Shown: one piece after another, positions 3,081-30,700 of the stretch
Layout of the letters: the number at the start of each line of letters is the position of its first letter
Position numbering within the stretch: the first letter of the stretch is position 1
Virus record (IMG/VR): IMGVR_UViG_3300035670_000150
Coordinates: 1-64,000 of that record
DNA length: 64,000 nt
Direction: 5' to 3' (one strand)
DNA from: a virus
Notes under the pieces: model-generated
Told to the model about the DNA's origin: nothing
The model's database searches: none
The model's input: the letters and a program-made list of their open reading frames with translations, nothing else
Translations under genes and position numbers: made by a program

Positions 3081-3422
3081 ATGAAAACAATTAAGGTGCG
3101 CTGTATTAAAGGATTCTCTGGATTCTTTATTAACTTATTTGCACTACTGTTCAGCGGGATTTCATGGGGACATCTAGCTGGATGGGCAAGTGCTTGGAAC
3201 ACTATCTATATCCGTAAGGATAAGATTGGTGATACTAAGCTTATTGCACATGAACTCTGCCATATTCACCAGATGAATACTCATGGCAAGTTTAAGTTTA
3301 TGCTGCTGTATGCTATTGAGCAATGTAAGGTAGGGTATCGAAATAATAAGTATGAAGTGGAAGCTCGGGCAGCAAGATTGCAAAACTTCCTTGGTATTTA
3401 CAAGGTTGAAGGCTATTTGTAA
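3081..3422 (+). CDS. Small HExxH protein, possible zinc metallopeptidase
   Basis: 113 residues. Residues 1-35 hold a hydrophobic stretch (FFINLFALLFSGISW). The centre has LIAHELCHIHQM, an HExxH zinc-metallopeptidase signature, followed by a conserved-looking acidic site, YEVEARAAR, about 35 residues later that could supply the third ligand. GAGGTTAAATT precedes the ATG. A rho-independent terminator follows, so this gene closes the fibre transcript just before the lysis cassette. A role in cell-wall or envelope breakdown is possible but not shown; it is too short for a typical secreted protease. Confidence 0.7.
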   Translation: MKTIKVRCIKGFSGFFINLFALLFSGISWGHLAGWASAWNTIYIRKDKIGDTKLIAHELCHIHQMNTHGKFKFMLLYAIEQCKVGYRNNKYEVEARAARLQNFLGIYKVEGYL

Positions 3423-3587: not shown

Positions 3588-4040
3588 ATGCCATACAAAG
3601 CCAAGTATTTTTCAGCGTTTGAATTAGTACCTAAAAGCTTGTTTGATTTACGAGGGGAGAAAGCAATTGAGCTGTTAGATAAGGAACTGTTAATTGCCCT
3701 CGATTATGTGCGAGAGTGTCTTGGTAAGGTCACGGTGAACAATTGGAAGTCAGGGGGTAAGTTTCAATTCAGGGGTATCCGTACTGCGGAATCCTCAGAC
3801 TACTCTGTCACTTCTCAGCACGCTTATGGCAAAGCAGTTGATTTTGATGTGGAAGGCATGACTGCTGAAGAAGTGAACCAATGGCTAATCGACAACAGGG
3901 AAGCAACGGAATTAAGAGCTATTAGCTTTATTGAAATGGGAATGAGTTGGGTGCATATGGATACACGGCCTGACGATAAAAATAACCTAACTTGTTGGTG
4001 GACAGATGGAAGAACAAAAGTCTTTAGCCGTTCGGTTTAA
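3588..4040 (+). CDS. Endolysin, M15-family L,D/D,D-peptidase type
   Basis: Cuts peptide cross-bridges of peptidoglycan at lysis. The 150-residue length and the zinc-site pattern fit Peptidase_M15: SQHAYGKAVDFD gives His78 and Asp85, and WVHMDTRP gives His123. There is no signal peptide or membrane segment, so export would depend on the holin-like product of the next gene, which overlaps this one by 35 bases. A strong ribosome site (GATGAGGTGATACC) fixes the start. It is the first gene of the lysis cassette, behind a terminator, so it probably has its own promoter in 3483-3587. Confidence 0.88.
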   Translation: MPYKAKYFSAFELVPKSLFDLRGEKAIELLDKELLIALDYVRECLGKVTVNNWKSGGKFQFRGIRTAESSDYSVTSQHAYGKAVDFDVEGMTAEEVNQWLIDNREATELRAISFIEMGMSWVHMDTRPDDKNNLTCWWTDGRTKVFSRSV

Positions 4041-5577: not shown

Positions 5578-8500
5578 ATGGCTACTACTATCACAGGGAT
5601 TCTAAAACCCTTCGGTATTCCCATAGCTAATGCGGTTATTAGGGTGACTAGCCTTAGTAACGATGGCACTATCAAAGGGGTGTACCTTACTCGATGCACT
5701 AACGAGAATGGTGAGTATAACTTCCATCTCGAAAATGGTGTCTACTCGTTAGAGTACAGACAGCTAAAGGTAATGGTGCCAGTGGGTAACGTCTATATTA
5801 GTGACAATACCCCTCCTGTACTCACACTTGAGGAGCTGATGAATACTAGCTCCTTGGTTCCAGTACCTGATTTGCCAACCACGGATGCTGATTGGGATGC
5901 TCTATTGAATGAGCACAATTCCAATGCAGAAAAGAGCATTGATATTAACCAAGCTACTTCAGGGGATGCAGCTTCTATCGACTACGAGGAAGCTTCGAGT
6001 ACTGCTAATTCATTTTTAGGTCGGGCAGTGGATACGGTATCTACCCCTATCGGTAAATCCACTAAGCAGGTTATAGAGTTCTCCAAAGGCTCTAATGCCT
6101 TGGCTAAAGAGGTAGATACCCTTACAGCTAAAGAAGCCGTTATGGAGTCATCCAAGGCCATTTATGCGGATGCTAATTACACCTTCGATATTAAGAGCAC
6201 CCTGCACCTTCCTGATTTGGAATTGGTAGACCGTTTCCAGAAAGTGAAGGAACTTAGTTCCTATTCAGTTAAAGACCATGAACGCATAGCTTTTGTGAAT
6301 AGCTTCCTTGAAAAGCAGCGTACCGCTACAACTGACTTAACAGGCAAGGTAACTAAGCTATCTGAGAGCCGTGGTGACTCTGTAACGGATAATTTCGTAG
6401 AAGCCTCAGTAACCACATCAAGAAATATAGAAACCTCTTACCGTGATTCTGAGGGCGTTCTAGTGAATGCTCCTAGAATCCTCGAAGAAACCTCCACTTT
6501 GGTTGATGGTGGCACTAACCACTCCAAGATTACCCAAGGGTATGAGCAGCGTATTACCAAGGATGATGAATCACTTACACGGTGGTATCAAAAGGTCACT
6601 ACCTATTTAAAGGAAGGGCTTGATGAGATAACCAACAATGGCTTTACCTCTTTACGTAAGTTCATCTATGACAAATTGCAATTTGGTGATGTGCTGTTTG
6701 TGGATAACGTTAAAAAAGAGGTCAAAGTACAGGGTAAGTTAATTATTGAAAACAGGGAAGATTTTACAGGGGATACTATTTTTGAAGTATTCCAATACTC
6801 TGTTGATGGCGTGACTTTATGGCATGACATATTTGCCATAGAAGACAGATGGCGTAGGCATAACACCTCAGTTAATGGCTATGTTGACCCTTCAAAATGG
6901 TCTGCTCCTTACTTGCTTCAAGCGGAGGATGGGCATGAAGGGGATACTCTGTATATTCAATACCGCTACTCTGCCAATATGGTTAACTGGCACGCTACTT
7001 TTGTGGATGGGGATATTTGGAGACAGGAGCGTATCATTGAAAACGGATACCCCATTACAGAATGGTCTACCCCTGCAAGAATCATTGGTGCTGATGGAGT
7101 GCCCGGGGATACGGTAACTATTGAATACCAGTACTCAATTGATGGTTTAGAGCCTTGGCATAATAACTTCAGTACGGGAGACCACTACAGGCGTGAAAGG
7201 TTAATCACCAATGGTGTTGCAGGTGCTTGGTCACAGCCTGCTAAGTTGGTTCCTGAAAAGGATGTGGATTACACCGATGGTAAGGATGGTAAGGATGGTA
7301 TCAATGGTGCCAAGTCCATCATCCTCCACCTGTACAAACGAGGTGATACAGCAGGTTCGATGGTTAGTACTGTATGTACATACAACTTTACAACCAAAAC
7401 GCTTACTGGGTTTAACAATGGATGGAGTCCTACAGTACCTTCGGGTAACGGTGCCATTTGGTTAACCGTAGCCACTGCCAGCTCTATTGGGGAAACAGAT
7501 ACTGTTGCTGCTAATGAATGGGCTACTCCTATCAAGTTTAGTGATGGGGGTAAAGGCGTTGCTGGCGTAGTAAACGAATATGGCTTATCTGCTTCAGCAA
7601 TGACTGAGCCTGCTAACTGGACTACTTCAGTACCTTCTGCTACGAAAGCTATGCCCTACCTATGGAACAGGGAAATCGTTACCTACAGTGATGGTGCTTC
7701 TGTTACAACTCCTTCGGCCATCATTGGGATGTTCTCAGAGGATGGTAGAGGTATTGCCAGTGTAACCGAATACTATTTGGCTTCTGCTTCAAGCAGTGGA
7801 GTTACCACGGCAACAACGGGGTGGACTACCACTATTCAGCATACCTCAGCAACTAAACGGTTTCTTTGGAACTATGAGGTAATTGCTTACACCGATGGCA
7901 CAACCAGTACTACAACCCCTGTTATTATTGGTACTCAGGGTGTTGATGGTAATGGGGTAGCAGGTATTGTGAACTATTACTTAATCAGTGACTTGAATTC
8001 AGGGGTTACTGTAGGTACTGCTGGATGGGCAACCAGTGTTCCTATCCCAACTAAAGCAAAGCCTTACTTATGGAACTACGAGAAAGTTACCTATAGTAAT
8101 GGGGCTATCGACAATACTCCTCCTGCATTGATTGGTACTTACAGTGAAGATGGTGTGAGTATTACAGGGGTTATTGAGTATTATCAAGTGGGTACATCTA
8201 GCAGTGTACCTCCTGCTAACCAAGCCTCTTGGCCTACTACTGCACCACTTACTACTCCTACGAATAAGTACCTTTGGAACTATGAAAAGATTACTTATAG
8301 CAACGGTACTTCTACTTCCACTGCTCCCGTGGTTGTTGGTGTGCATGGGGAAAAGGGTGATACAGGTGTAGGGATTAATTCAGTAGTGAATGAGTATGGT
8401 TTATCGGCCTCTGCTGGGACTGAACCAAGCACTTGGACTGCCACAGTGCCCACAGCAACCAAGGTATTACCTTATCTATGGAACAGGGAAATTGTCACCT

Positions 8501-10968
8501 ACACCAATGGTGATACAGTGACTACTCCTGCTGCCATTATTGGGATGTTTACTGAGGATGGTAAGGGCATAGCCTCCGTTACTGAATACTACTTAGCTTC
8601 TTCATTAAGCACAGGAGTGACTACAGCCACTGCTGGATGGACAACAGCAATTCAACATACCACAGTAACTAATAGGTTTCTGTGGAACTATGAAGTTACC
8701 ACCTACACTGATGGCTCAACCAACACTACAGCTCCTGTGGTTATTGGTACTCAGGGCATCAATGGGGTAGGGGTATCAAGCATAGTTAACTACTACTTGA
8801 TTAGTGCTGCTGGTTCTGGGGTAACTACTGGGACTGCTGGATGGACTCAAGCTGTGCAAATCCCAACCAAAGCAAGCAGGTATCTGTGGAACTACGAAAA
8901 GGTCACATATACCAATGGCACAGTGGAAAATACTCAGCCAGCTATCATAGGCACCTATAGTGAAAATGGGGTGAGTATCACTGGGGTAACTGAGTATTAC
9001 CAAGTGGGCACTTCAGGAAGTGTTGCACCTGCTGACCCTGCTTCATGGCCTACCCTAGCCCCACTGACTTCCCCCACTAACAAGTATCTCTGGAACTATG
9101 AGAAGATTTCTTACAGTGATGGAACCACTACTTCAACTACTCCTGTGGTTGTGGGTATTCATGGTGAAAAAGGGGACACAGGGGTAGGTATTACTTCAGT
9201 GGTGAACGAGTATGGTTTATCCAATAGCCCTGTTACTCAACCAGCTTCATGGAGTACTTCTGTAGTTACCCCAACAAGTGCTCAAAGGTACTTATGGAAT
9301 AGGGAGAAAATTTCCTATACGGATAGCACAGTAGTAACCACTTCTGCCGCTATTATCGGTATGTATAGTGAAGACGGTAAAGGAATTGTATCTATTACTG
9401 AGTGGTATTTGGTTACCAACAATACTACCCCACCTGCTAATGATGATGCTCGTTGGACAACTACTTTACAAATACCGACAGAAACAAATAGGTATCTGTG
9501 GAATAAGGAGGTAATTAAATACACAGTAGGGGCTGATACTGTAACTCCTCCTGTGATTATAGGTATCCACGGAACCAATGGTATTGATGGATACAACGCA
9601 GCTACTTTGTTTATTTACCAAAGGACTGCTAATCAACCTGCATTACCTACAGCAAACGTCACATACACTTTTGCTACTGCTGCAATAACAGGGCTAAATG
9701 GTGGCTGGTCACCTACTATCCCTGCTGGTACAGGTACTATTTGGGTAAGTACAGCTACTGCTCTATCCCAATCAGCTACGGATACCATTGCACCTAGTGA
9801 ATGGGCTGTGCCAGTGGTGCTTGCTCAGAGTGGTGAAGCAGGTAAACACGGAGCTGGTTCATACATTGTTGTGGTATCGAACGTATCTGCAATACCTGCT
9901 GATGCGGGCAAGGATAACCATATCTTGCAGTTGTCTGGTAGACCTGCTCAAGCAGGGGATATGCTGACTTATACCTCCCCTACAGGGGCAGCAGATGCAG
10001 ACAAATTTGTGAAACAATTCATTCGTGGGGCAAGTACTTGGGAAGCTTTCGTATTCGCTGTGGATGGTTCTGCTGTAATCAACGGTACTTTGGCTGCTCA
10101 GGCATTGAAAGCCGAATCTGCTATTGTTGATAAGCTGTATATCTCTGATGCCTTGGCTCAGAATGAGATGACCCTATCAGGTAAAGGAGATTATCGATTA
10201 TGGGCAGGTGGTGCTGACCCTCTTACGGCTATGTTTAGCTTAGATAAATTAGGCAATATCATAGCGAAAAACGGTACTTTTAAGGGGAGAATTGAGGCTA
10301 CTTCAGGCACATTCACAGGGGCGGTTAATGCCACTTCAGGTACGTTTACAGGGGTGGTTAATGCTACGTCTGGTAACTTTACAGGTAAGGTTAACGTAGG
10401 TGCGGGTTACATTCAGAATGGCACAGGTACTGCTAAGTTTTTAGCTACCAATAATGGAAACTTTTACGTTGACCATAACGGTAAGGTGTATGCTAAAGGG
10501 GGCATCTATGGTGGGGCTAGAATTGTAGCACAAGGGGAAAAAGTACTCTCTGATGCCACTACCCTTATTGCATTCCCTTCACAGTTCAGCGAGCTTTACA
10601 GGAAGGATGTGGCAATCTCTCCTTCAGGCCAACAAGGTGAAGGGGAGTACTATACTGACCGTGATGGTATGATATTCAGTACAGGCTTTACCTCACTGAT
10701 GCACCATACCAATAACAGACAGTACATTGTTGCTGTATCTATTGGAGGCACATGGACGTACTACATTAACCAACAGATAAATGCTAAAGCAGGTATTTTG
10801 GCTACTGTAGTACCTATGCTTAAAATGGATGGTAACTCTTACTATTATGATGCTGAGATTTTCATTCACTGTAAGATTGTGGGTTTCTATATGAGTGCTA
10901 AAACTTCTCTATCGACAGTAAGATGGAAGCTTATAGAATTGCTAACTAACCCTGAAGAAATGGTGTGA
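5578..10968 (+). CDS. Giant repeat-built tail fibre or appendage protein (1796 aa)
   Basis: Layout by residue: 1-95 beta-sandwich head; 100-390 helical, coiled-coil-like; 400-560 three repeats of about 52 residues (Y-x-Y-S-x-D/N-x-x-x-W-H); a short collagen-like GKDGKDGINGA with a sandwich domain (565-655); ten repeats of 65-70 residues (660-1335) each with YLWN(Y/R/K)E and a closing IIG or VVG; a second copy of the collagen-plus-sandwich unit; then a gpJ-like C-terminal part with three ATSGTFTG-type repeats. The ten repeats are arranged as ABCD-ABCD-AB. Its position before the portal fits the N4 appendage region. It probably binds host surface structures; receptor specificity cannot be read. 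Confidence 0.85.
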   Translation: MATTITGILKPFGIPIANAVIRVTSLSNDGTIKGVYLTRCTNENGEYNFHLENGVYSLEYRQLKVMVPVGNVYISDNTPPVLTLEELMNTSSLVPVPDLPTTDADWDALLNEHNSNAEKSIDINQATSGDAASIDYEEASSTANSFLGRAVDTVSTPIGKSTKQVIEFSKGSNALAKEVDTLTAKEAVMESSKAIYADANYTFDIKSTLHLPDLELVDRFQKVKELSSYSVKDHERIAFVNSFLEKQRTATTDLTGKVTKLSESRGDSVTDNFVEASVTTSRNIETSYRDSEGVLVNAPRILEETSTLVDGGTNHSKITQGYEQRITKDDESLTRWYQKVTTYLKEGLDEITNNGFTSLRKFIYDKLQFGDVLFVDNVKKEVKVQGKLIIENREDFTGDTIFEVFQYSVDGVTLWHDIFAIEDRWRRHNTSVNGYVDPSKWSAPYLLQAEDGHEGDTLYIQYRYSANMVNWHATFVDGDIWRQERIIENGYPITEWSTPARIIGADGVPGDTVTIEYQYSIDGLEPWHNNFSTGDHYRRERLITNGVAGAWSQPAKLVPEKDVDYTDGKDGKDGINGAKSIILHLYKRGDTAGSMVSTVCTYNFTTKTLTGFNNGWSPTVPSGNGAIWLTVATASSIGETDTVAANEWATPIKFSDGGKGVAGVVNEYGLSASAMTEPANWTTSVPSATKAMPYLWNREIVTYSDGASVTTPSAIIGMFSEDGRGIASVTEYYLASASSSGVTTATTGWTTTIQHTSATKRFLWNYEVIAYTDGTTSTTTPVIIGTQGVDGNGVAGIVNYYLISDLNSGVTVGTAGWATSVPIPTKAKPYLWNYEKVTYSNGAIDNTPPALIGTYSEDGVSITGVIEYYQVGTSSSVPPANQASWPTTAPLTTPTNKYLWNYEKITYSNGTSTSTAPVVVGVHGEKGDTGVGINSVVNEYGLSASAGTEPSTWTATVPTATKVLPYLWNREIVTYTNGDTVTTPAAIIGMFTEDGKGIASVTEYYLASSLSTGVTTATAGWTTAIQHTTVTNRFLWNYEVTTYTDGSTNTTAPVVIGTQGINGVGVSSIVNYYLISAAGSGVTTGTAGWTQAVQIPTKASRYLWNYEKVTYTNGTVENTQPAIIGTYSENGVSITGVTEYYQVGTSGSVAPADPASWPTLAPLTSPTNKYLWNYEKISYSDGTTTSTTPVVVGIHGEKGDTGVGITSVVNEYGLSNSPVTQPASWSTSVVTPTSAQRYLWNREKISYTDSTVVTTSAAIIGMYSEDGKGIVSITEWYLVTNNTTPPANDDARWTTTLQIPTETNRYLWNKEVIKYTVGADTVTPPVIIGIHGTNGIDGYNAATLFIYQRTANQPALPTANVTYTFATAAITGLNGGWSPTIPAGTGTIWVSTATALSQSATDTIAPSEWAVPVVLAQSGEAGKHGAGSYIVVVSNVSAIPADAGKDNHILQLSGRPAQAGDMLTYTSPTGAADADKFVKQFIRGASTWEAFVFAVDGSAVINGTLAAQALKAESAIVDKLYISDALAQNEMTLSGKGDYRLWAGGADPLTAMFSLDKLGNIIAKNGTFKGRIEATSGTFTGAVNATSGTFTGVVNATSGNFTGKVNVGAGYIQNGTGTAKFLATNNGNFYVDHNGKVYAKGGIYGGARIVAQGEKVLSDATTLIAFPSQFSELYRKDVAISPSGQQGEGEYYTDRDGMIFSTGFTSLMHHTNNRQYIVAVSIGGTWTYYINQQINAKAGILATVVPMLKMDGNSYYYDAEIFIHCKIVGFYMSAKTSLSTVRWKLIELLTNPEEMV
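7555..9590 (+). repeat. Two-level tandem repeat inside the fibre gene
   Basis: Ten units of about 200 bases encode the YLWN modules. Units 1-4 (from about 7555), 5-8 (from about 8368) and 9-10 (from about 9184) line up with a period of about 813-816 bases: A units carry VVNEYGLS, B units VTEYYLAS, C units VNYYLIS and D units EYYQVGTS. This points to duplication of a four-module block, so the region is prone to recombination and to assembly error. Confidence 0.88.
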
Positions 10969-10975
10969 GGACAGT

Positions 10976-11215
10976 ATGGGTAAATTAATTATTAAACAGT
11001 TGGGTGAAGGGTTTTCTGAATACAGAACTGCATTACACCAGATAGGGGCAGAGTTAGGGGATATGATATTTCCTAGTGAAGTCCCTGTGGAAGTAGAATT
11101 AGTCGATGGTGCTCAGTACCATGCGACTTTGTTTTTTGGTAATGGTCAAACACTAGAATTTGATATTAATGGGAGTGAGACTACTGACTTACTTAATTTA
11201 ATTGAGAACTATTAA
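10976..11215 (+). CDS. Unknown small protein between fibre and portal genes (79 aa)
   Basis: Not recognised. It starts 7 bases after the fibre stop with GAGGACAGT before the ATG, so it belongs to the fibre transcript. It is acidic and soluble with no membrane segment. The second half reads as alternating strands (VEVELVDGAQYHATLFF). Position suggests a chaperone or small structural partner of the fibre, as inference only. Confidence 0.65.
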   Translation: MGKLIIKQLGEGFSEYRTALHQIGAELGDMIFPSEVPVEVELVDGAQYHATLFFGNGQTLEFDINGSETTDLLNLIENY

Positions 11216-11225
11216 ACAGTTTACG

Positions 11226-11252
11226 GGTAGAATACTGATACAGTGTTCTACC
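11226..11252. other. Strong hairpin upstream of the portal gene
   Basis: A 12-bp stem, GGTAGAATACTG / CAGTGTTCTACC, with one G-U-type mismatch and a 3-base loop ATA. No T-run follows; TATAATC does. It could be a weak terminator of the fibre transcript, an mRNA-end stabiliser or part of the portal promoter. Confidence 0.6.
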
Positions 11253-11310
11253 TATAATCTTTCAATGTGTTGTATCATTACCCAAATTAAGTTTAAGTTA
11301 CGAGGTTACA

Positions 11311-13491
11311 ATGGCTAAGAAGACTACAAAAGAGGATGAGTTAGAAATCATCGAAAACCCTTCTGAAATCATCGAAGAAGTTGAAGATGCTAAAAGCGTT
11401 GGGGTAGATTGGGAAAATCCTCCTTCTTTGGCTGCTATGCAAGAAGACCTCGCTAATATCATTACTCACCACGGTAAGAACATTGAGTCTATTGACCGTT
11501 GGTTAGACTTATTGCATATCCGTGGTTCTGCCAAGCGTCCTAAAATTGCAGGGCGTTCTAACGTACAGCCTAAACTCATTCGTAGGCAAATGGAATGGCG
11601 TATTCCAACGCTTACAGACCCTTTCCTAAGTACCAAAGAGCTGTTTAATGTTCAAGGTAAAACCTTCGAAGACGTTTATGCCGCCAAGCAAAACCAATTA
11701 GTATTGAACTACCAGTTCGACACTATCATTGATAAAACTCAGTTTATTGATAAGTATGTCCGTACCTTTGCCAGTGAGGGCACGGTATTCTTACGAGTAG
11801 GTTGGAAATTCAGGGAAGAAACCAAAGAGGTAGAAGTACCCAAGTATGAATATCGTGTCCCCACTGCTGAAGATATGGTGGTGTTGCAACAAGCTGTGCA
11901 ATTGCAAGCAGAGGATTTAGGCAAGTATATTGCCTTGGTTCCTGAGAGTGTGAAGCACTCATTAGAACTTACTCAAGCTGGAGGTGTTCCTACGTTTGCA
12001 GTGCAAGTAGGGATGGAAAAAGAGGAGCAGTTAGTTACTACTGCTAACCACCCCACATTGGATATTGTGGATTACCGTAGACTATATATTGACCCTAACT
12101 GCCAAGATAATATCGAAGATGCTGAAGTCATCATCTATTCGTTTATGACTTCTATGTCAGAGTTGATTGCTTCGGGCAAGTACTCCAATTTAGATAAAGT
12201 TCAGGTAGATAATGCCACTGTTGCTTCACTCACTGATGAACAGTTCAATGCGGGGAATATCCTTAACTTCAATGATGAAGCACGCAAGCGTTTGATAGCT
12301 TATGAGTATTGGGGCAATTGGGATATTCATGGTGATGGGGTAGCTGTGCCTATTGTGGCTACATGGATTGGTGATGTGCTTATTCACATGGAAGAAAACC
12401 CCTTCCCTGATAAGAAACACCCCTTTGTGAATGCTACCTATATCCCTGTTAAAAACTCAGTATATGGTGAACCTGATGCAGAACTTTTAGCTGATGCCCA
12501 AGCCATCTATGGGGCTACAATGCGTAGTATGGTGGACATCCTAGGCAGAACAGCTAACGGTCAAGAGGGGATGAGACAAGACCTGTTAGATGCAGTGAAT
12601 AAACGTAAGTACCTCAGAGGAGATGCTTACGAGTTCAACCCTACAGTGGATGCACGCCAAGGTATCATCAAGCATGTGGCTCCTGAGATTCCTCAATCAG
12701 CCACCTATATGCTTCAGTTACAAAATAACGAAGCTGAGTCCTATTCGGGGGTTAAAGCATACTCCTCTGGTATTGGTTCTACTGCTTTGGGTGATGTAGC
12801 TGCTGGTATTAAAGGCGCTTTAGATGCTGCGTCTAAACGCGATTTAAGTATCTTACGGAGACTGGCTTCAGGTTTAGAGAAAGCAGCTCGTAAAATTATA
12901 TCCCTCAATTCTGTATTCTTAGATGAAACAGAAGTGGTGCGTATCACAGAAGGCAAATATGTGCCTATACGTAGGGATGATTTAGCGGGTAATTTTGACT
13001 TAAGCTTATCTATTAGCACTGCTGAGGAAAATGAAAACAAAGCTAGTAAATTAGCTTTCATGCTTCAAACTTTAGGTAATACAGTACCATTTGAATTAAC
13101 CAAAACAGTATTAACTCAAATTGCTGACCTATATAAAATGCCTGACTTGGCTAAACGGTTGGAGAATTACACTCCTGCCCCTGACCCAGTTCAGCAACAG
13201 AAGGACGCTCTTGAATTACAATTACTTCAAATGAAAATTGAACAAGAGAAAGCTCAAATTGAAGAACATAGAGCCAAGACTCAGTATTATCTTTCTCAAT
13301 CTGCTAATAAAGATGCAGATACTAATAAGAAAGTGCTGGACTTTGTGGAACAAGAATCAGGAACTACGCAAGAAAGAGCCAAGGAATTGCATCAAGCACA
13401 GGCTGAAGGTAATATAAAGCTCGAATTGGTTAAAGCAGCAATAACCAAAGAAACTGTAAAAAAAGATAAACCTACACCAACCTCCATCTGA
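11311..13491 (+). CDS. Portal protein (N4 gp59-like)
   Basis: 726 residues, close to N4 portal length. It forms the twelve-fold ring at the capsid vertex through which DNA, and in N4 the virion polymerase, pass. Features: acidic N-terminus; conserved-looking core IDRWLDLLHIRGSAKRPK and NVQPKLIRRQMEWRIP (about 60-95); a region LYIDPNCQDNIEDAEVIIY (about 250); and a C-terminal coiled coil (about 625-720) rich in Gln, Lys and Glu. GAGGTTACA precedes the ATG. The gene order portal, scaffold, capsid matches N4 and supports the call. Confidence 0.87.
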   Translation: MAKKTTKEDELEIIENPSEIIEEVEDAKSVGVDWENPPSLAAMQEDLANIITHHGKNIESIDRWLDLLHIRGSAKRPKIAGRSNVQPKLIRRQMEWRIPTLTDPFLSTKELFNVQGKTFEDVYAAKQNQLVLNYQFDTIIDKTQFIDKYVRTFASEGTVFLRVGWKFREETKEVEVPKYEYRVPTAEDMVVLQQAVQLQAEDLGKYIALVPESVKHSLELTQAGGVPTFAVQVGMEKEEQLVTTANHPTLDIVDYRRLYIDPNCQDNIEDAEVIIYSFMTSMSELIASGKYSNLDKVQVDNATVASLTDEQFNAGNILNFNDEARKRLIAYEYWGNWDIHGDGVAVPIVATWIGDVLIHMEENPFPDKKHPFVNATYIPVKNSVYGEPDAELLADAQAIYGATMRSMVDILGRTANGQEGMRQDLLDAVNKRKYLRGDAYEFNPTVDARQGIIKHVAPEIPQSATYMLQLQNNEAESYSGVKAYSSGIGSTALGDVAAGIKGALDAASKRDLSILRRLASGLEKAARKIISLNSVFLDETEVVRITEGKYVPIRRDDLAGNFDLSLSISTAEENENKASKLAFMLQTLGNTVPFELTKTVLTQIADLYKMPDLAKRLENYTPAPDPVQQQKDALELQLLQMKIEQEKAQIEEHRAKTQYYLSQSANKDADTNKKVLDFVEQESGTTQERAKELHQAQAEGNIKLELVKAAITKETVKKDKPTPTSI

Positions 13492-13519
13492 ACGGTATTA
13501 GCCGCAGGACAAGGAAAAT

Positions 13520-13894
13520 ATGAAACCAATGGTAGAAGTAACTAAAGAAGAAGCAATTGCAGAGTGCCAACAGCGTATTGAAATTTACACGAAGAACGCT
13601 GAAAAATTAGCAATGCTTGACAGGCTTGTTTTAAATCCAGACTTTATTGCATTGATTGAAGAAGATTACTTCAAAGCTCGGCCAGTTCGTTTGGTTATGG
13701 CAAAAGGTAATCCGTCAATGGATAGTGCAGATAGCCAAGCTCGGTTAGTGCGTGAAATGGATGGTATTGCAATGCTACGCCAGTACTTCCATGTAATTGA
13801 AACAGAAGGCACTGTTGCTAAGGCTATGATTGAGCGTGAGCTTGACCAAATCAAAGAATTAGAATTAGAAGTTGAAGGGGATTACCATGAGTAA
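13520..13894 (+). CDS. Small protein between portal and scaffold (N4 gp58 position)
   Basis: 124 residues, helical and charged, no membrane segment. Start set by AAGGAAAAT before the ATG. Its last 8 bases overlap the next gene (ATGAGTAA), indicating translational coupling with the scaffold-like protein. No motif was recognised. The N4 counterpart is assigned by order and size only; its function is not known to me. Confidence 0.7.
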   Translation: MKPMVEVTKEEAIAECQQRIEIYTKNAEKLAMLDRLVLNPDFIALIEEDYFKARPVRLVMAKGNPSMDSADSQARLVREMDGIAMLRQYFHVIETEGTVAKAMIERELDQIKELELEVEGDYHE

Positions 13895-15002
13895 GAAAAC
13901 CCTCGAATCACTGGCAGCTATGTCAGATGCGGATTTCGCTAAATTTTCTGCCTCCCTTCCAGCTACTGAAGAACCTACTTCAGATGTAGATGATACTGAA
14001 GACACCGATGATAATGATGCTACGGATGTTGAGGTAGAAGATGACTCAAACAATGAGGAAGAGACGGCCACTGCTGATGACTCAGATGAGGAGGAAGCAG
14101 AGGAACAGGAAGATGATGCAGAAGAGGGAGAAGCAGAACAGGAAGCTACGGAAGATGAAGACGAAGCAACTGCTGCTGACGACAAATCTGATATTGAGTC
14201 TACCAGTGCCAAACAGTTAGAAAAACTGTTTACTCCTTTTAATGCTAATGGCACCCAAATCAAAATTGATTCAGTAGAGGAAGCTATTGAATTAATGCAG
14301 ATGGGTGCTAATTATCATAAAAAGATGCACACGCTCAAACCTTACATGAATATCGTTAAAACACTTGAAAAAAATAATCTATTAAACGAAGATAGTATTA
14401 ACTTCTTAATTGATTTATCCAAGAAGGATAAAAATGCAATTAGTAAGTTGATGGCTGATGGTGAAATTAATCCATTAGACATCGAAACGGAAGCCGTTAA
14501 TTATTCTCCTGCAAAGCACGTTGTAAGTAATGAAGAAGTTTTATTAGATGAGGTGCTCCAGTCCATTAAGGGCACTCCAACATTTAAAGAAACGATGGAC
14601 GTCATTACTCAACAATGGGATGCACCCAGTAAAGTATATTTAACAGCAAACCCTAAACGCATTGCTGACTTGAACGCACATAAGGCAAGTGGATTATTTG
14701 ACCTTATCAATACGGAAGTAGCCAAGCAACGTATGTTTGGGAGATTGCAAGGGCTTTCTGATTTTGAAGCTTATGAGCGTGTTGGTATCCAAGTACTCGA
14801 AAAGCAAATGGCAACTGCTACGCAACATGCTAGCAACCCAAAAACTGCTAAGAGTAAGGTAGACCCTGAAACGCAAAAAGCACAAAAACAAAAAGTAGCT
14901 GCACCAAAAGGGAAAATTACGAATGCGGCTTTACCTAATGTGGAAAGACTAGCCTCGTTATCTGATGAAGATTTCTTGAAGCTGTCTAAAAAATATATTT
15001 AA
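13887..15002 (+). CDS. Acidic scaffold-like head protein (N4 gp57 position)
   Basis: Start chosen at the second candidate: AGGGGATTACC sits before this ATG, while the longer frame would begin with TTG. Residues about 25-100 are extremely rich in Asp and Glu, the middle is helical, and the C-terminal third is basic (KSKVDPETQKAQKQKVAAPKG). Lying directly before the major capsid gene, it fits a scaffolding or head-assembly protein. The first and last 25 residues carry the same short pattern, L-A-x-(M/L)-S-D-x-D-F-x-K-(F/L)-S, which may be a paired capsid-contact site. Confidence 0.75.
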   Translation: MSKKTLESLAAMSDADFAKFSASLPATEEPTSDVDDTEDTDDNDATDVEVEDDSNNEEETATADDSDEEEAEEQEDDAEEGEAEQEATEDEDEATAADDKSDIESTSAKQLEKLFTPFNANGTQIKIDSVEEAIELMQMGANYHKKMHTLKPYMNIVKTLEKNNLLNEDSINFLIDLSKKDKNAISKLMADGEINPLDIETEAVNYSPAKHVVSNEEVLLDEVLQSIKGTPTFKETMDVITQQWDAPSKVYLTANPKRIADLNAHKASGLFDLINTEVAKQRMFGRLQGLSDFEAYERVGIQVLEKQMATATQHASNPKTAKSKVDPETQKAQKQKVAAPKGKITNAALPNVERLASLSDEDFLKLSKKYI

Positions 15003-15024
15003 TAACTAGCGGAGTTATGCATCT

Positions 15025-16209
15025 ATGGCTATGCAATATAAAGACCCCATTGGTGGTACAAAGTCATCTATCGGTGATCAGTTATCACTATACGTTTTCG
15101 ACCGCAATTCTCTAATTGAGATGCAGAAGGAACAGTATTTTACTCAAATGTCTGACACTACCAGTATGCCTAAGCATTTTGGTAAAACTATCAAGAAATT
15201 CGTTTGGATTCCGATGCTTGATGACCGCAACGTTAACGACCAAGGTTTGGATGCTGCTGGTGCCCAATATGCTAAGGGTAACATCTACGGTTCAAGCAAG
15301 GACGTTGGTACAATCGTTTCTCGTTTACCTGTGGTAGGTGAAAACGGTGGCCGTGTAAACCGTGTTGGCTTCACCCGTGTAACACTGCAAGCGGAAATTA
15401 CGAAGTTAGGCTTCTTCACTGAATTCACTCGTGACTCAGTGCAGTTCGATAGCGAACAAGACATCTTACGTCACTACCGCCGTGAAATGATGTATGGCGC
15501 TAACGAAATCTCTGAAGATGCTCTTCAGGTTGATTTGTTAAACGCTGCTGGCGTGGTTCGTTATGCGGGTATTGCAACCCAAAACAGCGAAGTTACAGGT
15601 GAAGGTGATAACGTATCAGAAGTTGATTATGATGACCTGATGCGTTTGGCTATCGACTTACGTAACAACCGTACTCCACTGCGTACTAAGGTAATCGTAG
15701 GTTCTACCCTGACTGATACCCGTGTGATTGCAGATGGCTACCCACTGTACATCGGTAGTGAATTGCTTCCTACCCTGAAGCACATGGCTGACCCATTTGG
15801 CAACCCTGCATTTATTGCAGTTCAGCACTATGCTGATGGTGGTAATACCTTACGTGGTGAAGTTGGTACAGTAGACCATTTCCGTATCATCGTAGTTCCT
15901 GAAATGCAACACTTTGCAGGTGCTGGTGCTACAGCTACCGCAGCCAACAAAGGCTATATGGCTACTGCTGGTAAGTACGATGTGTTCCCAATGCTGTGTG
16001 TAGGCGGTGACTCATTTACTACCTTAGGCTTCCAGTCTGATGGTAAAAGTGAGAAGTACAAAATCATCACCAAGATGTATGGCGAAGAAACCGCAGACCG
16101 TACTGACCCTTACGGTGAAACTGGTCTGGCGTCTATTCAGTGGTGGTACGGTACTTTAGTACAACGCCCAGAACGAATTGCACTGTTAAAAACTGTTGCT
16201 CGTCGTTAA
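15025..16209 (+). CDS. Major capsid protein (N4 gp56-like)
   Basis: 394 residues, near the N4 capsid protein length of about 400. Characteristic stretches include SMPKHFGKTIKKFVWIPMLD near residue 50 and ELLPTLKHMADPFGNPAFI near 245. It builds the icosahedral shell. Codon use differs from neighbouring genes: arginine is mostly CGT and asparagine mostly AAC, as expected for the most expressed late gene. A rho-independent terminator follows. The ribosome site GCGGAG is about 10 bases before the ATG, slightly distant. Confidence 0.92.
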   Translation: MAMQYKDPIGGTKSSIGDQLSLYVFDRNSLIEMQKEQYFTQMSDTTSMPKHFGKTIKKFVWIPMLDDRNVNDQGLDAAGAQYAKGNIYGSSKDVGTIVSRLPVVGENGGRVNRVGFTRVTLQAEITKLGFFTEFTRDSVQFDSEQDILRHYRREMMYGANEISEDALQVDLLNAAGVVRYAGIATQNSEVTGEGDNVSEVDYDDLMRLAIDLRNNRTPLRTKVIVGSTLTDTRVIADGYPLYIGSELLPTLKHMADPFGNPAFIAVQHYADGGNTLRGEVGTVDHFRIIVVPEMQHFAGAGATATAANKGYMATAGKYDVFPMLCVGGDSFTTLGFQSDGKSEKYKIITKMYGEETADRTDPYGETGLASIQWWYGTLVQRPERIALLKTVARR

Positions 16210-16224
16210 TCCCTGATAGTATGA

Positions 16225-16254
16225 AGGAGCCTAGAAATAGGCTCCTATTTTATT
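16225..16254 (+). terminator. Terminator after the capsid gene
   Basis: A 9-bp stem AGGAGCCTA / TAGGCTCCT closed by a GAAA tetraloop is followed by ATTTTATT. It would let capsid mRNA accumulate apart from downstream genes. Confidence 0.88.
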
Positions 16255-16299
16255 AGCTCAATTTAGTCATATGGTTCCACCCATTAAAAGGAAATGAAA

Positions 16300-16935
16300 A
16301 TGTTTGAAAACAATCCAGATACCGAAACCACTCAAGACCAGTTAGAAGATGCCTCTTTAGAAGCTGCTGAAACAGCTCCTACTTATACCCCTGAAGATGA
16401 AATGGCTGCATTAAAAGCCAGAGCACGCCTATTAAAAATTACCGTGCGTGGTAATCCTTCGTTAGAAACCATGCGTAAATTGGTTAACGATGCAATTAAT
16501 GGCACAACCGAAGAAACCCCTGAAGGCAGTACTCCAACTTCTGCCCCTAAAGCGTTAACCAAACAAGAGAAAGAGCAGCAAGTTATTGATGATGCTATGC
16601 GCTTAGTTCGGGTACGCATTGTGTGTATGAACCCTGCCAAGCGTGATATTCAGGGTGAAATTATCTCCGTGGGTAATAAGCTGTTAGGCACAGTTAAAAA
16701 GTTCGTTCCCTTTGTTGCTTCTGCGCATCCTGATGGTTATCACTTGCCCAACATCCTGTATCAAGAGATGAAATCTCGTAAGTATCAGGGTTTCCGTACC
16801 GTCACACACAACAACGGGCAAAAGACGCAAGAAGCAGCTTTATTCAATGAGTTCGCCATTGAAGTGCTGCCTAACCTATCACCTGAAGAGCTGAAAGAAT
16901 TGGCTCAAGTACAGGCTGCTAAGAAAGGCGTTTAA
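16300..16935 (+). CDS. Virion-region protein (N4 gp55 position, 211 aa)
   Basis: Start taken at 16300: the ribosome site AAAAGGA ends only one base before the first ATG (16294) but seven bases before this one. N-terminal third is acidic and Pro/Thr-rich, probably disordered. The C-terminal two thirds are folded (VRVRIVCMNPAKRDIQG, FVPFVASAHPDGYHLPNILY, EAALFNEFAIEVLPNLSPEEL). The last pattern is common in N4-like relatives next to the capsid gene. Function not known to me; head-completion or adaptor role is inferred from order. Confidence 0.75.
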   Translation: MFENNPDTETTQDQLEDASLEAAETAPTYTPEDEMAALKARARLLKITVRGNPSLETMRKLVNDAINGTTEETPEGSTPTSAPKALTKQEKEQQVIDDAMRLVRVRIVCMNPAKRDIQGEIISVGNKLLGTVKKFVPFVASAHPDGYHLPNILYQEMKSRKYQGFRTVTHNNGQKTQEAALFNEFAIEVLPNLSPEELKELAQVQAAKKGV

Positions 16936-24700: not shown

Positions 24701-27700
24701 ATTGACTCCATCTGAGAGCTTATTACTGGATAAGCTGCCAGTCTTCATGGGAGGATTCGAAGCCCGCTTAAGAAGCTTGCTGCCATCTCCTGAAACTGTG
24801 TTGAGTAAACGTGGTTGGCAAAGTGTCTCTGCCCCACTTCACGCCTTCACACTGGAAGATGGTACTTTCAGCAAAGAGTTCACCGAAGCTATGGCTATCT
24901 CTGCGTTGGAATACTTGGAGAGCAATAGCTTATCTCTGATGGGAGATAACACCACAAGCATTGCTACCCTACTTGGTTTGGATACCAAGGACTTTGTACC
25001 TACTCGGGAACAATACGAAGCCTTGGGTAATGCAGGAAGCCCTTACGCTGACGTAGCACAAAAGCTTGGTGCCATTGCCCTTAAGAACATGGGAATGAAG
25101 AAGGATTCTTCTAAGCCTCAAAATATCATGAATAACATGGAGTATGACTTAGGTCGGGCAATCATTGGGGCATTGAATGGAACTACCCGTGAGAATGGTA
25201 TTCTGACAGTAACCAGCTATAAGATTAGTGATTTAGTGGCTCTTGGTGGTGATTACACTATCGACCCTAAAAACCCGCACGCCACTATTGAATCCATTGC
25301 ATTCAACCCTAAAGTGGTTGCTAGCTTCCTTGGGGTTAAAGATGTGTCCTCTATCTTTGGGGGCACTAATGGCTTATTAACTACCCTAACCAGTAATAAA
25401 GCTGAGTTACCTAAAGCAGAGATTGGTACTAAAACCCAAAAAGTGAGCAATTTTATTAGGCGCTCTAAAGGCCAAAAAGCGCCAAAAGAATTTGTAGAAG
25501 GTTTACAAAAAGATGCCAATGTACCTAATTACTTAGACTTGAATATGCATACGCTATTCAATGAATTAGGTAAAAATTGGTTTGCTTATATGTTAGGCAC
25601 ACGGGATGCAAGCAAGGCTATTCTAGGTAAACGCCCTTCTATCGAAGGTAAGAATAAAACTGCTGAAGTGGACATTACTCGTTATGAAATGTTCCTAGCT
25701 CGTATGCAAGAGACAGCGGGCAATCTTACTGCTCCATTCTTCTATAACTACCGTATTGGTAAACAGCTACGGGCAAGTGCTATTGGTTCAGATATTAATT
25801 TCCAGACCTCTAAATTCCATCGGTATATGACTGCCATGGAACCAAGTGAAATTGATATGGTTAATGATACAAACCAATCATTCACTCTGTTCAAGTTGGG
25901 CGTAGCTCAAGGTTTAGGTTTCGGTGTAGACAAGAAGACAATTCAAGCCAGTTTAGCATTTTATGATAGCGTGTTAGCTGACCCTGTGTTCATGAATGGT
26001 GTCTATGCCATTAAGGAAATCTTAAGTGGTACACCTGCTACTGACGGCCATAGACAAGCCATTCTTGATGCAGTAGAGAAAGGCGAAGAAGCTACCCATT
26101 CCCTGAAATCGTTAACAGGTCTGGCCGAAATGCTTATGGCTACTGAGGGTAAATTCAATACCACAGTAACTCTTGAGCTTGATGGTGTGACTAACGGTGT
26201 AGCTAACGCCCATATCCAAATGGGATTGGCTATGCAGAATGGTAAGTTAACTGAAACTTCTCGTATTCGTTTAGCTCAGAGTGGGTTCTTCTTAGATGGT
26301 ACTGAGACATACAACGAATGGATTAACCGTGCTGGTAATATGGATATGTACCAGTCAACGGCTGTTGCAGCTAACGTAGCTGAACAAGTATGGATTGAGG
26401 ATTCAGCTAACCAAGATATGCTTGGTACTTTGGCTACTTTCAAGAAATACACAGGGGAATTAGTTAAGGAAACTATCGAAGGGGATTTGGCTGCTACGTC
26501 TGAAGGACGTAACTTTGTCAAGAACCCTATTACTACTACTGTGTATGCATCGGGTGCTAAAAGCCGTAGTGATAAGATGGCAGATAAGGTCATGGACAAC
26601 CTATTAGATGCCGTTGAGAAAGCTGTTTTAGCTAATGATGTTCAAGCATTGAATGAGTTGAAACAGGACATCAGTACTCTTGCGGGTATGAGAATCATCT
26701 TCCCTCGTAACATGATGGAATTTGAATTTAACTCTTTCATTGCTAAGGGTATTAAGTACTCATTCAGTAAATCGCTGGGTGCCATTGTCAACGAAGCAAT
26801 TTCTAATGAGTATGCTAAACAATTAGATAACACTGCATTGGTCACTGAAACCAGTAACGTTATCTTTGATATGTTCAATGCTTTGTATCAAACCAAGATT
26901 AAAGAAAAGTTAGCTGAATTGAGAAGTGCAGGTAAGTTAAGCACTTACGCTTACTTGTCTGAAGACCAATTGGATGAGATTAAAAATTCCTTACTCCATA
27001 CTATGCCCGTATTCAATTCTTTTTACGGTAACATCAGTAACGGGGTAATGACTGCCAAATACTCGGGCACTAGCAATGTAAGTAATGCGGATAAAGATGT
27101 GAAAGCTGCATTCCATCTTGGTTCTGCGTTAGGCCACAGAGGAAGCAACTACTCCTATACCGATGGTTACGAAGCTCCTGCTGCTGGTACTATGGCTATT
27201 CTAAACATCGCCTTCGGTGATGCTACAACCATGGCTAGAGCAGCATATAAGTCAGATGAGCCACTAGGATTAAACGTATTCGATGCTCGGTTAACCCGTA
27301 TTGCTAACGTAGCCAATACTGCTACAGCATTAAACGAATCCGCTTATGAAGCAGTGACTTACCATAATCTGTTGGGCACAGTGAGTAAGCGTTTACAGGA
27401 AGCCACTAAAGAGTTTATGCAAAGTGGAGTAAGTAAAACTTACTCTCCTGAAATTAATGCTCTAGCCCATAAGGTGCTTGTGGCTCATTACTCTGATGGG
27501 TTAAGCCTTATCAATGGTAAAGCCCATTACAAAAATAGCGATGGCAAACCAATTGCACTTGAAGATGCTGAAGTGGCTCAGTCATTTACTCCTGATATGC
27601 TTGTGCGTTACATAGACAACTTGAATGCTCGTATGACTGCTGCCCATAAGCAAAGTCAAGAAGCTAAGCAAGTGCTGTACAAGTCACTTAGCGTAAACCA

Positions 27701-30700
27701 ATTCAGTTCCGTTACTGGTGGGGCTAAGTTTGCTAATGGTAAGAAGCAGGATGTACGTGACTTCACTATGGAAGAAGCGGCTAATGCCCAAGCCTCTTTA
27801 GAGACCCGTATCATTGAAACAGTGATGGACTCTACGGAACCTTTAACAGGAGATATTGACCAGACTTTAGCTAACTTAGAAGCTGTATTACCTCCTGTTC
27901 AAGCAGAGACACCAAGTGTTGCCACGGTAGAGCCTAAGCTAGAAGCTATCATTGCAGGCCGTACTGAGTTCCCTCTTGCCGATATTCTGAATAATTTGAA
28001 AGACCTCACAGATATTCGTACTGCTAAAGCAATGCGGGAATTACTGAGTAATCTTCGTGGTTCGAATATTCAGGTAAGAATCTTAGGTGCCAATGAACAG
28101 AAAGTGATTGCTACTTCACTAGGCGAGATGAGCACAGAGTCCCTATACGGTTATTGGGAACCCAATGAAAAGGTCATCTACTTGCAAGGTACTCACTCCC
28201 CTAATTCAGGCGTGGCTATTGAAACACTTTTGCATGAGGCAATTCATGCGGCTTTGGATAGCAGACTAACCAGTATCGAAAAACAACTCACTCAAGGTGT
28301 GAATGGAGGCCATACAGTTAAAGAGCTTAGTGCCTATAAGCACATTGAACAGATGCGAGCTAAGGCTAAAGAATTCTTAGATGCTGACTCTACAGCCAAC
28401 ATTAAAGAGTTTATTGCATGGGGCTTATCCAATGCTAAAAACAGGGGTTTGTTAAGTAAACAACCAACCCGTATTAGGGCATTTGTTAAGGCTATCGTTA
28501 CCCAATTGAAATTGATGCTCGGGCTGAAAACTCAAGATTCAAACATGCTTCTTGATTTACTTGCTGATGCCATGGTTATTGGTAAAGCAGGCACTGAGGT
28601 ACGGAGTTCACTAGATAACACTATAGCAAGTTCTCCTCAAGTGGCTCATGATGCTACACGTTATATGGACTTAAACCAAATCTATGACCATATTGCCAAA
28701 AGCAACACTAATACCATTACTGCAAGCCATGATGCCCATCTACGTGAGGTATTAAATAAGGCTGTTATCAAGGCCATTAACCCTACTCTGTTGGTTATCC
28801 CTGATAATGCTAAAACTTTATCTTCTCAGGATGCTGCTTTACTTCATGCATTAGACCCTGAAATTCGTAAAGACTTTGGTTTGTTGACTGCTCTCAACTT
28901 CCGTGTAAGTGACCAAGAACTCATGGTCTATGCAACCTATAGCACTATCATTGGTTCAGCCTTAAATGACTTTGGTTGGAATACCCGTGAAATCCGTAGG
29001 ATGTACGCCCATGCTAAGAAGAATCTAAGCTGGCGTGACTTTATTGGACAGGACAGTGTACTTGATACTGAGGCAGATAGAGCACGTTCTGAAAGTGAAG
29101 CTAGGGCAAGATACAATGCAGTATTTGCCAATACTCAGACTAATGATTATCTGCGTAACTTCATGGCCTTGGCTGCTACTAACGAAGCGTTCAGGGAAAG
29201 ATTGGCTACTCTAACCACTCCACCAGCGGTAAGCAAAGCTATCAGAGGGGAAACTGTTAGAGACACTCTTAAAAATATTATTGAAGCTATCTTAAACTTT
29301 TTGAATGACTTAGCTATCACTCGTTCACATGAACCTACTGTGTTGGCTAAGTTAGACAAATTGGCTAAGAACATTCGTCACAGAGAAATTAAAGAGAAGA
29401 ATAAACTACAAAGTAAGATTATTAAATCTGCTAAGTTTGCTTCTAAAGTACTGAATACTGTGAATGAATTCAGTCGTATTAAGATTGATAAAGCATTCGA
29501 TAAAATGAAAAAGAAAGTGAGTAAACGCAGAATACTAAATGCTGCTGTAACTCTTTCTAGTGTGGTACTCAGTGAACGTAGAGCAAGTGAATTCGCTTTC
29601 GGTTTGGATACCATTCAGAACTTTATGACTACGGGTCGTGAGGGATTTGTATCTGCCTTATGGACAGACCTAAAAGGGACTGATGATAGCAATATCCGTA
29701 TTCATAGTTTGCTGGCAACGAAGAACAAGCTAATCGACCAAGAGACAGTGAACGTTAAAACCAATACTTCTGAATTGGTAAAATCCTTGTTTGGTAAAGA
29801 GCTTACTGATAAAGAAAGTGTAGCTGCTACTAAAGTACTGATAGCTCCTGACTTATCCAGCTTATTAACTAATGGCTATAGCTTTGCTCAAATTGCTAAC
29901 TTCTTGAATAACCCTCTAGCTGTTAAAAATGAGGCGACTAGGCTGCAAGTGGCTATACGCCAACAGGCACCAAAAGGCACAGATGAGTATTTCATTAACC
30001 AAGCCAAGAACACTGCTCACATGATGATTAGAGGCTATCAGAAGTACCGAGGCCACGTTATGAGTAACGCTGCAACTATCGTTACTCTGTTCGGTACTGG
30101 TGAACCTAATCCCAATGCGAGTATGCAAGTTAGGACTATGGTAGATTCCTTGATTACTCTGGAAGCCTTGCAACTGGTTGACCCTGTGCAACTACAGATG
30201 ATGAGCAATCTGTATAAGAGAGAGGCTGCTCGTAAAGGGGAAAACGGTGTTGAGTCCCTTTTGGCTATGCACAACGTAGTGAAAGACAAAGTGCTTAAGA
30301 ACACCTTCTTAGGTAATGAGTTCAACTATGTCAAAGGCCATACCACAGACATTACTGACCCTTACATGTCAATCCAGATTGCACCTAAGAGTATGGAAAA
30401 TGAGCTGCTGATGCAGAACTATGAAAGGGTTGGGGAACCTCTCGTTAAGGATAAGCATGACCCAGTGGCAGAGCCAATGTATATGTATGTGTCCAACTAC
30501 GGGGGCGAAGCTACTTACCTGCAAGGAGCAATGTCTCTTGCAAGTAAAGGTGCTCGGGGTATGAGTGTGCTTGATGCTAATAACCAAGCAGGCAATGCCC
30601 TACCTATCTACAAACAGAAGGATTTGATTAACAAGATTCGTAGAGGCAAGGCCATTGATAACCAGAAGTTGTTCATGCCTAACCCTCCTTTGGCTGATAA

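Follow-up and report, generated by a model that had tools for sequence, protein, structure and literature searches.

A zincin-like domain with an intact active site and a decayed second copy in the virion RNA polymerase of an N4-like phage

The window, by which we mean the whole stretch of 64,000 nucleotides analysed here, is part of a 72.6-kb virus record (G000) and comes from an N4-like phage. It carries the gene of a virion RNA polymerase (vRNAP) homologous to N4 gp50 (Table 1). In a profile search, PHROG 2206 ("virion RNA polymerase") matched residues 70-3403 of this protein (3334 residues) with 1489 bits, and sequence matches to the N4 vRNAP in PDB had E values down to 1.6e-78; the protein has both the single-subunit polymerase motifs and the full-length similarity to N4 gp50 that characterize N4-like vRNAPs. 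A search of viral contigs with the window vRNAP as a single protein returned a 100%-identical contig as the sole match, and the relatives for the larger sets below were gathered via polymerase alignments. In public phage records (H2, H26, H61, H63, and others), vRNAP genes are misnamed as translation initiation factor 2, DNA polymerase, or ribonuclease E. Elsewhere in the window, positions 3081-3422 (+) encode a 113-aa protein that has an HExxH of its own (LIAHELCHIHQ), matches nothing in Pfam, and may be an unrelated small zincin-like protein, and positions 3588-4040 (+) encode a 150-aa protein with weak matches to M15 peptidases (D-Ala-D-Ala carboxypeptidase type), which is a possible endolysin.

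Table 1 Features of the vRNAP gene in the window (aa, residues of the vRNAP)
Feature	Position (nt)	Strand	Evidence or remark
vRNAP, N4 gp50 homologue, 3434 aa	21786..32090	+	PHROG 2206, PDB N4 vRNAP
Polymerase motif DGVTNG, aa 1466-1471	26181..26198	+	Most conserved 9-mer block of the vRNAP
Zincin copy 1, aa about 2058-2275, intact active site (predicted domain)	27957..28610	+	Profile alignment A3, AF2 model, DUF6782 E=4.5e-4 (below Pfam cut-off)
HEAIH: H2150, E2151 (general base), H2154 (His, putative zinc ligands)	28233..28247	+	Motif, conservation, predicted helix 2145-2170
E2208, predicted third zinc ligand, in KEFIAWGLSN	28407..28409	+	Conservation and model, next-but-one helix
Zincin copy 2, aa about 2286-2535, catalytically dead here	28641..29390	+	Profile comparison (hhalign)
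YATYS, aa 2382-2386, in place of HExxH in copy 2	28929..28943	+	Alignment
N2458, in place of third-ligand Glu in copy 2	29157..29159	+	Alignment

A sequence-only reading of this DNA had proposed a gluzincin-like metallopeptidase site formed by H2150, E2151, H2154, and E2208 in the domain that we call copy 1. All four residues lie where that reading had put them, and the distances it had given, 54 residues from the motif to the later Glu and about 320 residues from polymerase motif C forward to the site, also hold. HEAIH is the sole HExxH of the whole protein, for which the composition predicts 0.045 such motifs by chance. The Pfam families DUF6782 (putative metallopeptidase) and Peptidase_M78 gave weak profile matches over the HExxH region, but copy 1 stays below their curated cut-offs (15.9-20 bits for DUF6782, where 27 are asked for) and is a formal member of neither. 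Conservation bore the proposal out. HExxH and the later Glu were kept in 9/9 divergent full-length vRNAPs, a set that includes the window and covers phages of Escherichia, Pseudomonas, Vibrio, Roseobacter, and Acinetobacter, and when 9-residue blocks were ranked by conservation over the whole protein in this set, DG(V/L)TNG came first, the HExxH block second, and the E2208 block third. Among 54 diverse vRNAPs with two copies, mostly 17-25% identical to the window protein, the two His and the two Glu were present in 54/54 and were the sole invariant columns of about 480. N4 keeps them too: its counterpart of the motif is HELVH at 2228, and its later Glu lies in NEFMAWGL.

An AlphaFold2 model built on the alignment of these 54 vRNAPs (pLDDT 81 on average and about 91 for the active-site helices) shows strands at model positions 39-43, 50-53, 65-68, and 73-77, followed by a helix at 88-113 that bears H93, E94, and H97 of HExxH, and it places E151, which is E2208 of the protein, in a later helix at 149-158. 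The predicted fold, in which a small sheet precedes the HExxH helix and the Glu sits on another helix, is zincin-like. In Foldseek searches of PDB, the window model matched the N4 vRNAP (9PNR, E=7.9e-6); no solved peptidase was matched significantly (LTA4 hydrolase and lethal factor had E values of 0.25-0.9), and a single-copy model gave nothing significant. Taken together, the alignments and the model make it very probable that a zinc-binding hydrolase domain of the zincin superfamily (gluzincin-like, HExxH...E) occupies residues about 2058-2275.

Researchers have described this domain in N4-like phages before. Iyer et al. 2017 (PMC5512222) assigned N4 (aa 2130-2448) and its relatives a zincin-like metallopeptidase of the "polyvalent protein" kind, reached lethal-factor-type zincins in profile searches, and credited N4-like RNAPs with "one or more MPTase domains", and the sequence-only reading had named the same polyvalent-protein family. 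A 2021 review repeats the assignment for Pectobacterium phages (PMC8472413), and a cryo-EM preprint on N4 from 2025 reports a conserved HExxH in subdomain C1 (2124-2375; PDB 9PNR; PMC12633501). The metallopeptidase finding for copy 1 was therefore already known. The window domain is orthologous to that of N4 by alignment, lies in the same protein family at the same place after the polymerase, has HExxH and a Glu on a later helix, and differs in nothing essential. Four further findings, namely the dead copy 2, the pattern of one intact site per vRNAP, the behaviour of copy 1 as a cassette, and the presence of the domain in phiKMV gp37 and the PhiM1 ejection protein, were not found in the literature searched; the portion of PMC5512222 covered here makes no mention of a decayed second copy in N4-type proteins.

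The metallopeptidase interpretation of the sequence-only reading was thus strengthened by conservation and the predicted fold, but a second, dead zincin directly after copy 1 had been overlooked. Its four catalytic positions read Y2382, A2383, S2386, and N2458 in the window. Comparison of profiles with hhalign gave E=4.4e-8 for copy 1 against copy 2, and the profile of relatives whose copy 2 has an intact active site matched the decayed copy 2 at E=1.9e-49 and copy 1 at E=4.2e-15, with controls against the polymerase profile at E=0.4-0.6. Because the intact-copy-2 relatives match both, they link the two copies as homologues. Copy 2 is accordingly a zincin that has lost its metal site and probably survives as a structural module. 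Of the 72 decayed copies, 48 have Glu instead of the second His and Arg instead of the third-ligand Glu, which suggests that a salt bridge may stand in for the metal there. By profile, residues about 2400-2616 of N4, at the start of C2, are a decayed zincin too, whereas the preprint found no structural homology for C2 (PMC12633501). Since copy 2 is dead as well (YGMYS, N) in the nearest distinct relatives of the window protein, L013 and L014, whose polymerase cores are about 50% identical to its own, the decay is probably older than their split from the window lineage.

In a survey of 100 distinct vRNAPs, the two copies showed a clear division. Copy 1 was intact in 75 of the 76 vRNAPs having it, the exception (L147) being a weak match with an intact copy 2. 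Copy 2 was intact in all 24 vRNAPs without copy 1, as against 3 of the 75 with it; in the remaining 72 of these 75, copy 2 had lost HExxH and the Glu and kept the fold. Wherever the C-terminal region was covered among the 100, at least one site was intact. Copy 1 is truly absent from the 24 rather than missed, because the stretch before copy 2 is correspondingly shorter in those proteins. The counts indicate that selection acts on the active-site residues themselves, beyond the fold, and a single intact site per polypeptide suffices, which may lie at one or the other of two places separated by about 230 residues. On the polymerase tree, the presence of copy 1 changes at least six times and the activity of copy 2 at least three times; a sign test of whether gains of copy 1 go together with losses of copy 2 was not significant, the tree providing few independent pairs.

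Copy 1 behaves as a cassette. The vRNAPs of Vibrio phage phi 1 and of a close relative (L116) are 96% identical and differ by one clean block of 218 aa, which is copy 1, present in phi 1 and absent from L116. Among named phages, blastn found the block in phi 1 only, and JA-1, JSF3, VCO139, and 12VC501 matched the adjoining sequence at 95-96%. Origin of the phi 1 block as a duplicate of its own copy 2 was rejected, since its best matches are the copy 1 domains of other phages; this resemblance favours gain by recombination rather than proving it.

Several further vRNAPs were unusual in other respects. One of them (L099, positions 5906-16311) reads as two ORFs with the break after polymerase motif B and before motif C, and has both zincin copies intact (HEMIH and HELIH). 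We rejected a natural split of the polymerase from the C-terminal part, as the join falls between polymerase motifs and the frame apparently changes on either side of it; a sequencing or assembly frameshift is likelier, and the protein was therefore left out of the counts. In L094 (ORF from 3896) and also in L064, two further HExxH motifs lie N-terminal to the polymerase (aa 1178 and 1418), which suggests more zincin domains before the polymerase, while L068, L145, L147, and L157 have single extra HExxH motifs. A contig of an "archaeon" MAG (L163) encodes a vRNAP very close to that of coliphage 24-32N (L009) on the tree and is most likely a misbinned phage contig. Matches to Orthopox_A49R, BrxL, and similar Pfam families in single rows were judged to be due to chance.

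The same domain was also found in ejection proteins. The copy 1 profile matched PDB 9SFN chain G (E=4.5e-20), whose length and aligned letters are those of phiKMV gp37 (1337 aa), and 8VB2 (E=5.4e-5), whose chain A has the length of PhiM1_43 (1263 aa); the alignments show HEAVH and HEAAH, respectively, each with a later Glu. The zincin domain thus occurs in the largest ejection protein of each phage, that of PhiM1 being tetrameric, but these proteins, unlike the vRNAPs, have no RNA polymerase domain and only one zincin, in the N-terminal third. The PhiM1 paper and a review of ejection proteins mention no peptidase. A crAss-like phage protein annotated as "RNAP associated protein fused to zincin protease" (BFVD A0A345MT41) gave a weak fold match to the model of L116 copy 2 (E=0.02), a hint that crAss-like phages may have a similar pairing of RNAP and zincin.

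The N4 vRNAP is delivered into the cell with the genome. Judged by orthology to it, copy 1 is part of a multidomain protein that probably enters in the same way. We consider it reasonably probable that copy 1 is a built-in zincin protease domain with a dead zincin next to it, and that this enzyme is ejected with the polymerase and acts in trans. The ejected polymerase would bring the putative protease into the cell, where copy 1 would bind zinc and hydrolyse peptides; it would then, as the genome enters or shortly afterwards, cleave a protein of the host envelope or cytoplasm or a further component of the ejectosome, a step to which we give about even chances. The occurrence of the site in either vRNAP position and in polymerase-free ejection proteins favours such an entry role in trans over control of the polymerase.

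That control could consist in self-cleavage, by which the domain cuts the vRNAP after ejection, frees the polymerase from an inhibitory C-terminal domain, and turns transcription on. Self-processing of polyvalent proteins was proposed by Iyer et al. 2017 (PMC5512222), and in N4 the C-terminal domain does inhibit the polymerase and a flexible 23-aa linker joins the polymerase to C1 (PMC12633501). However, the N4 vRNAP, with its HExxH intact, is packaged unprocessed (PMC5512222), and the recombinant full-length protein was purified without degradation (PMC12633501). Self-cleavage is thus less likely, and the suggestion of the earlier reading that the enzyme could trim virion proteins finds no support either. 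The tight and loose states of the N4 vRNAP already constitute a non-proteolytic switch (PMC12633501), and the domain is also found where there is no polymerase to release. We therefore regard autoproteolysis as rather unlikely.

It is less likely still that the HExxH domain is not a protease at all and serves as a structural metal site or as another enzyme, such as an oxygenase. The preprint names both options and cites radical-SAM/alphaKG-HExxH (PMC12633501), and the peptidase activity of copy 1 is a prediction, but the general-base residue E2151, which would be superfluous in a structural site, is as invariant as the ligands, and the profile searches of Iyer et al. led to zincins of the lethal-factor type. 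We see hardly any chance that accident or constraint on the fold has preserved the active-site residues as a relic. N4 does need the region for encapsidation (PMC5512222), and a fold could persist for assembly; nevertheless, without selection on the site copy 2 loses it and keeps the fold (72/75), and a copy 2 that stands alone keeps the site (24/24), which largely refutes this explanation.

For the protease that is ejected and acts in trans, we speculate that a rule of one active site holds for schitovirus vRNAPs: in their tandem pair of zincin domains, the site was passed from an older copy 2 to the acquired cassette copy 1, which is shared with phiKMV-type ejection proteins, and copy 2, with which the polymerase-inhibiting C2 begins, then decayed to a pseudo-protease. 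The ejected protease would then be a general entry function of podophages and no accessory of the polymerase; our confidence in this course of events is evenly balanced. The C-terminal third of N4-type vRNAPs is conserved and, in N4, required for packaging. As every relative examined retains a protease site, whichever of the two interchangeable domains carries it, a protease function is a strong and testable hypothesis for this third, and the decayed zincin accounts for part of the C2 region that had been reported without matches. Polymerase-free ejection proteins have the domain as well, which suggests that podophages share the injection of a protease as part of their entry.
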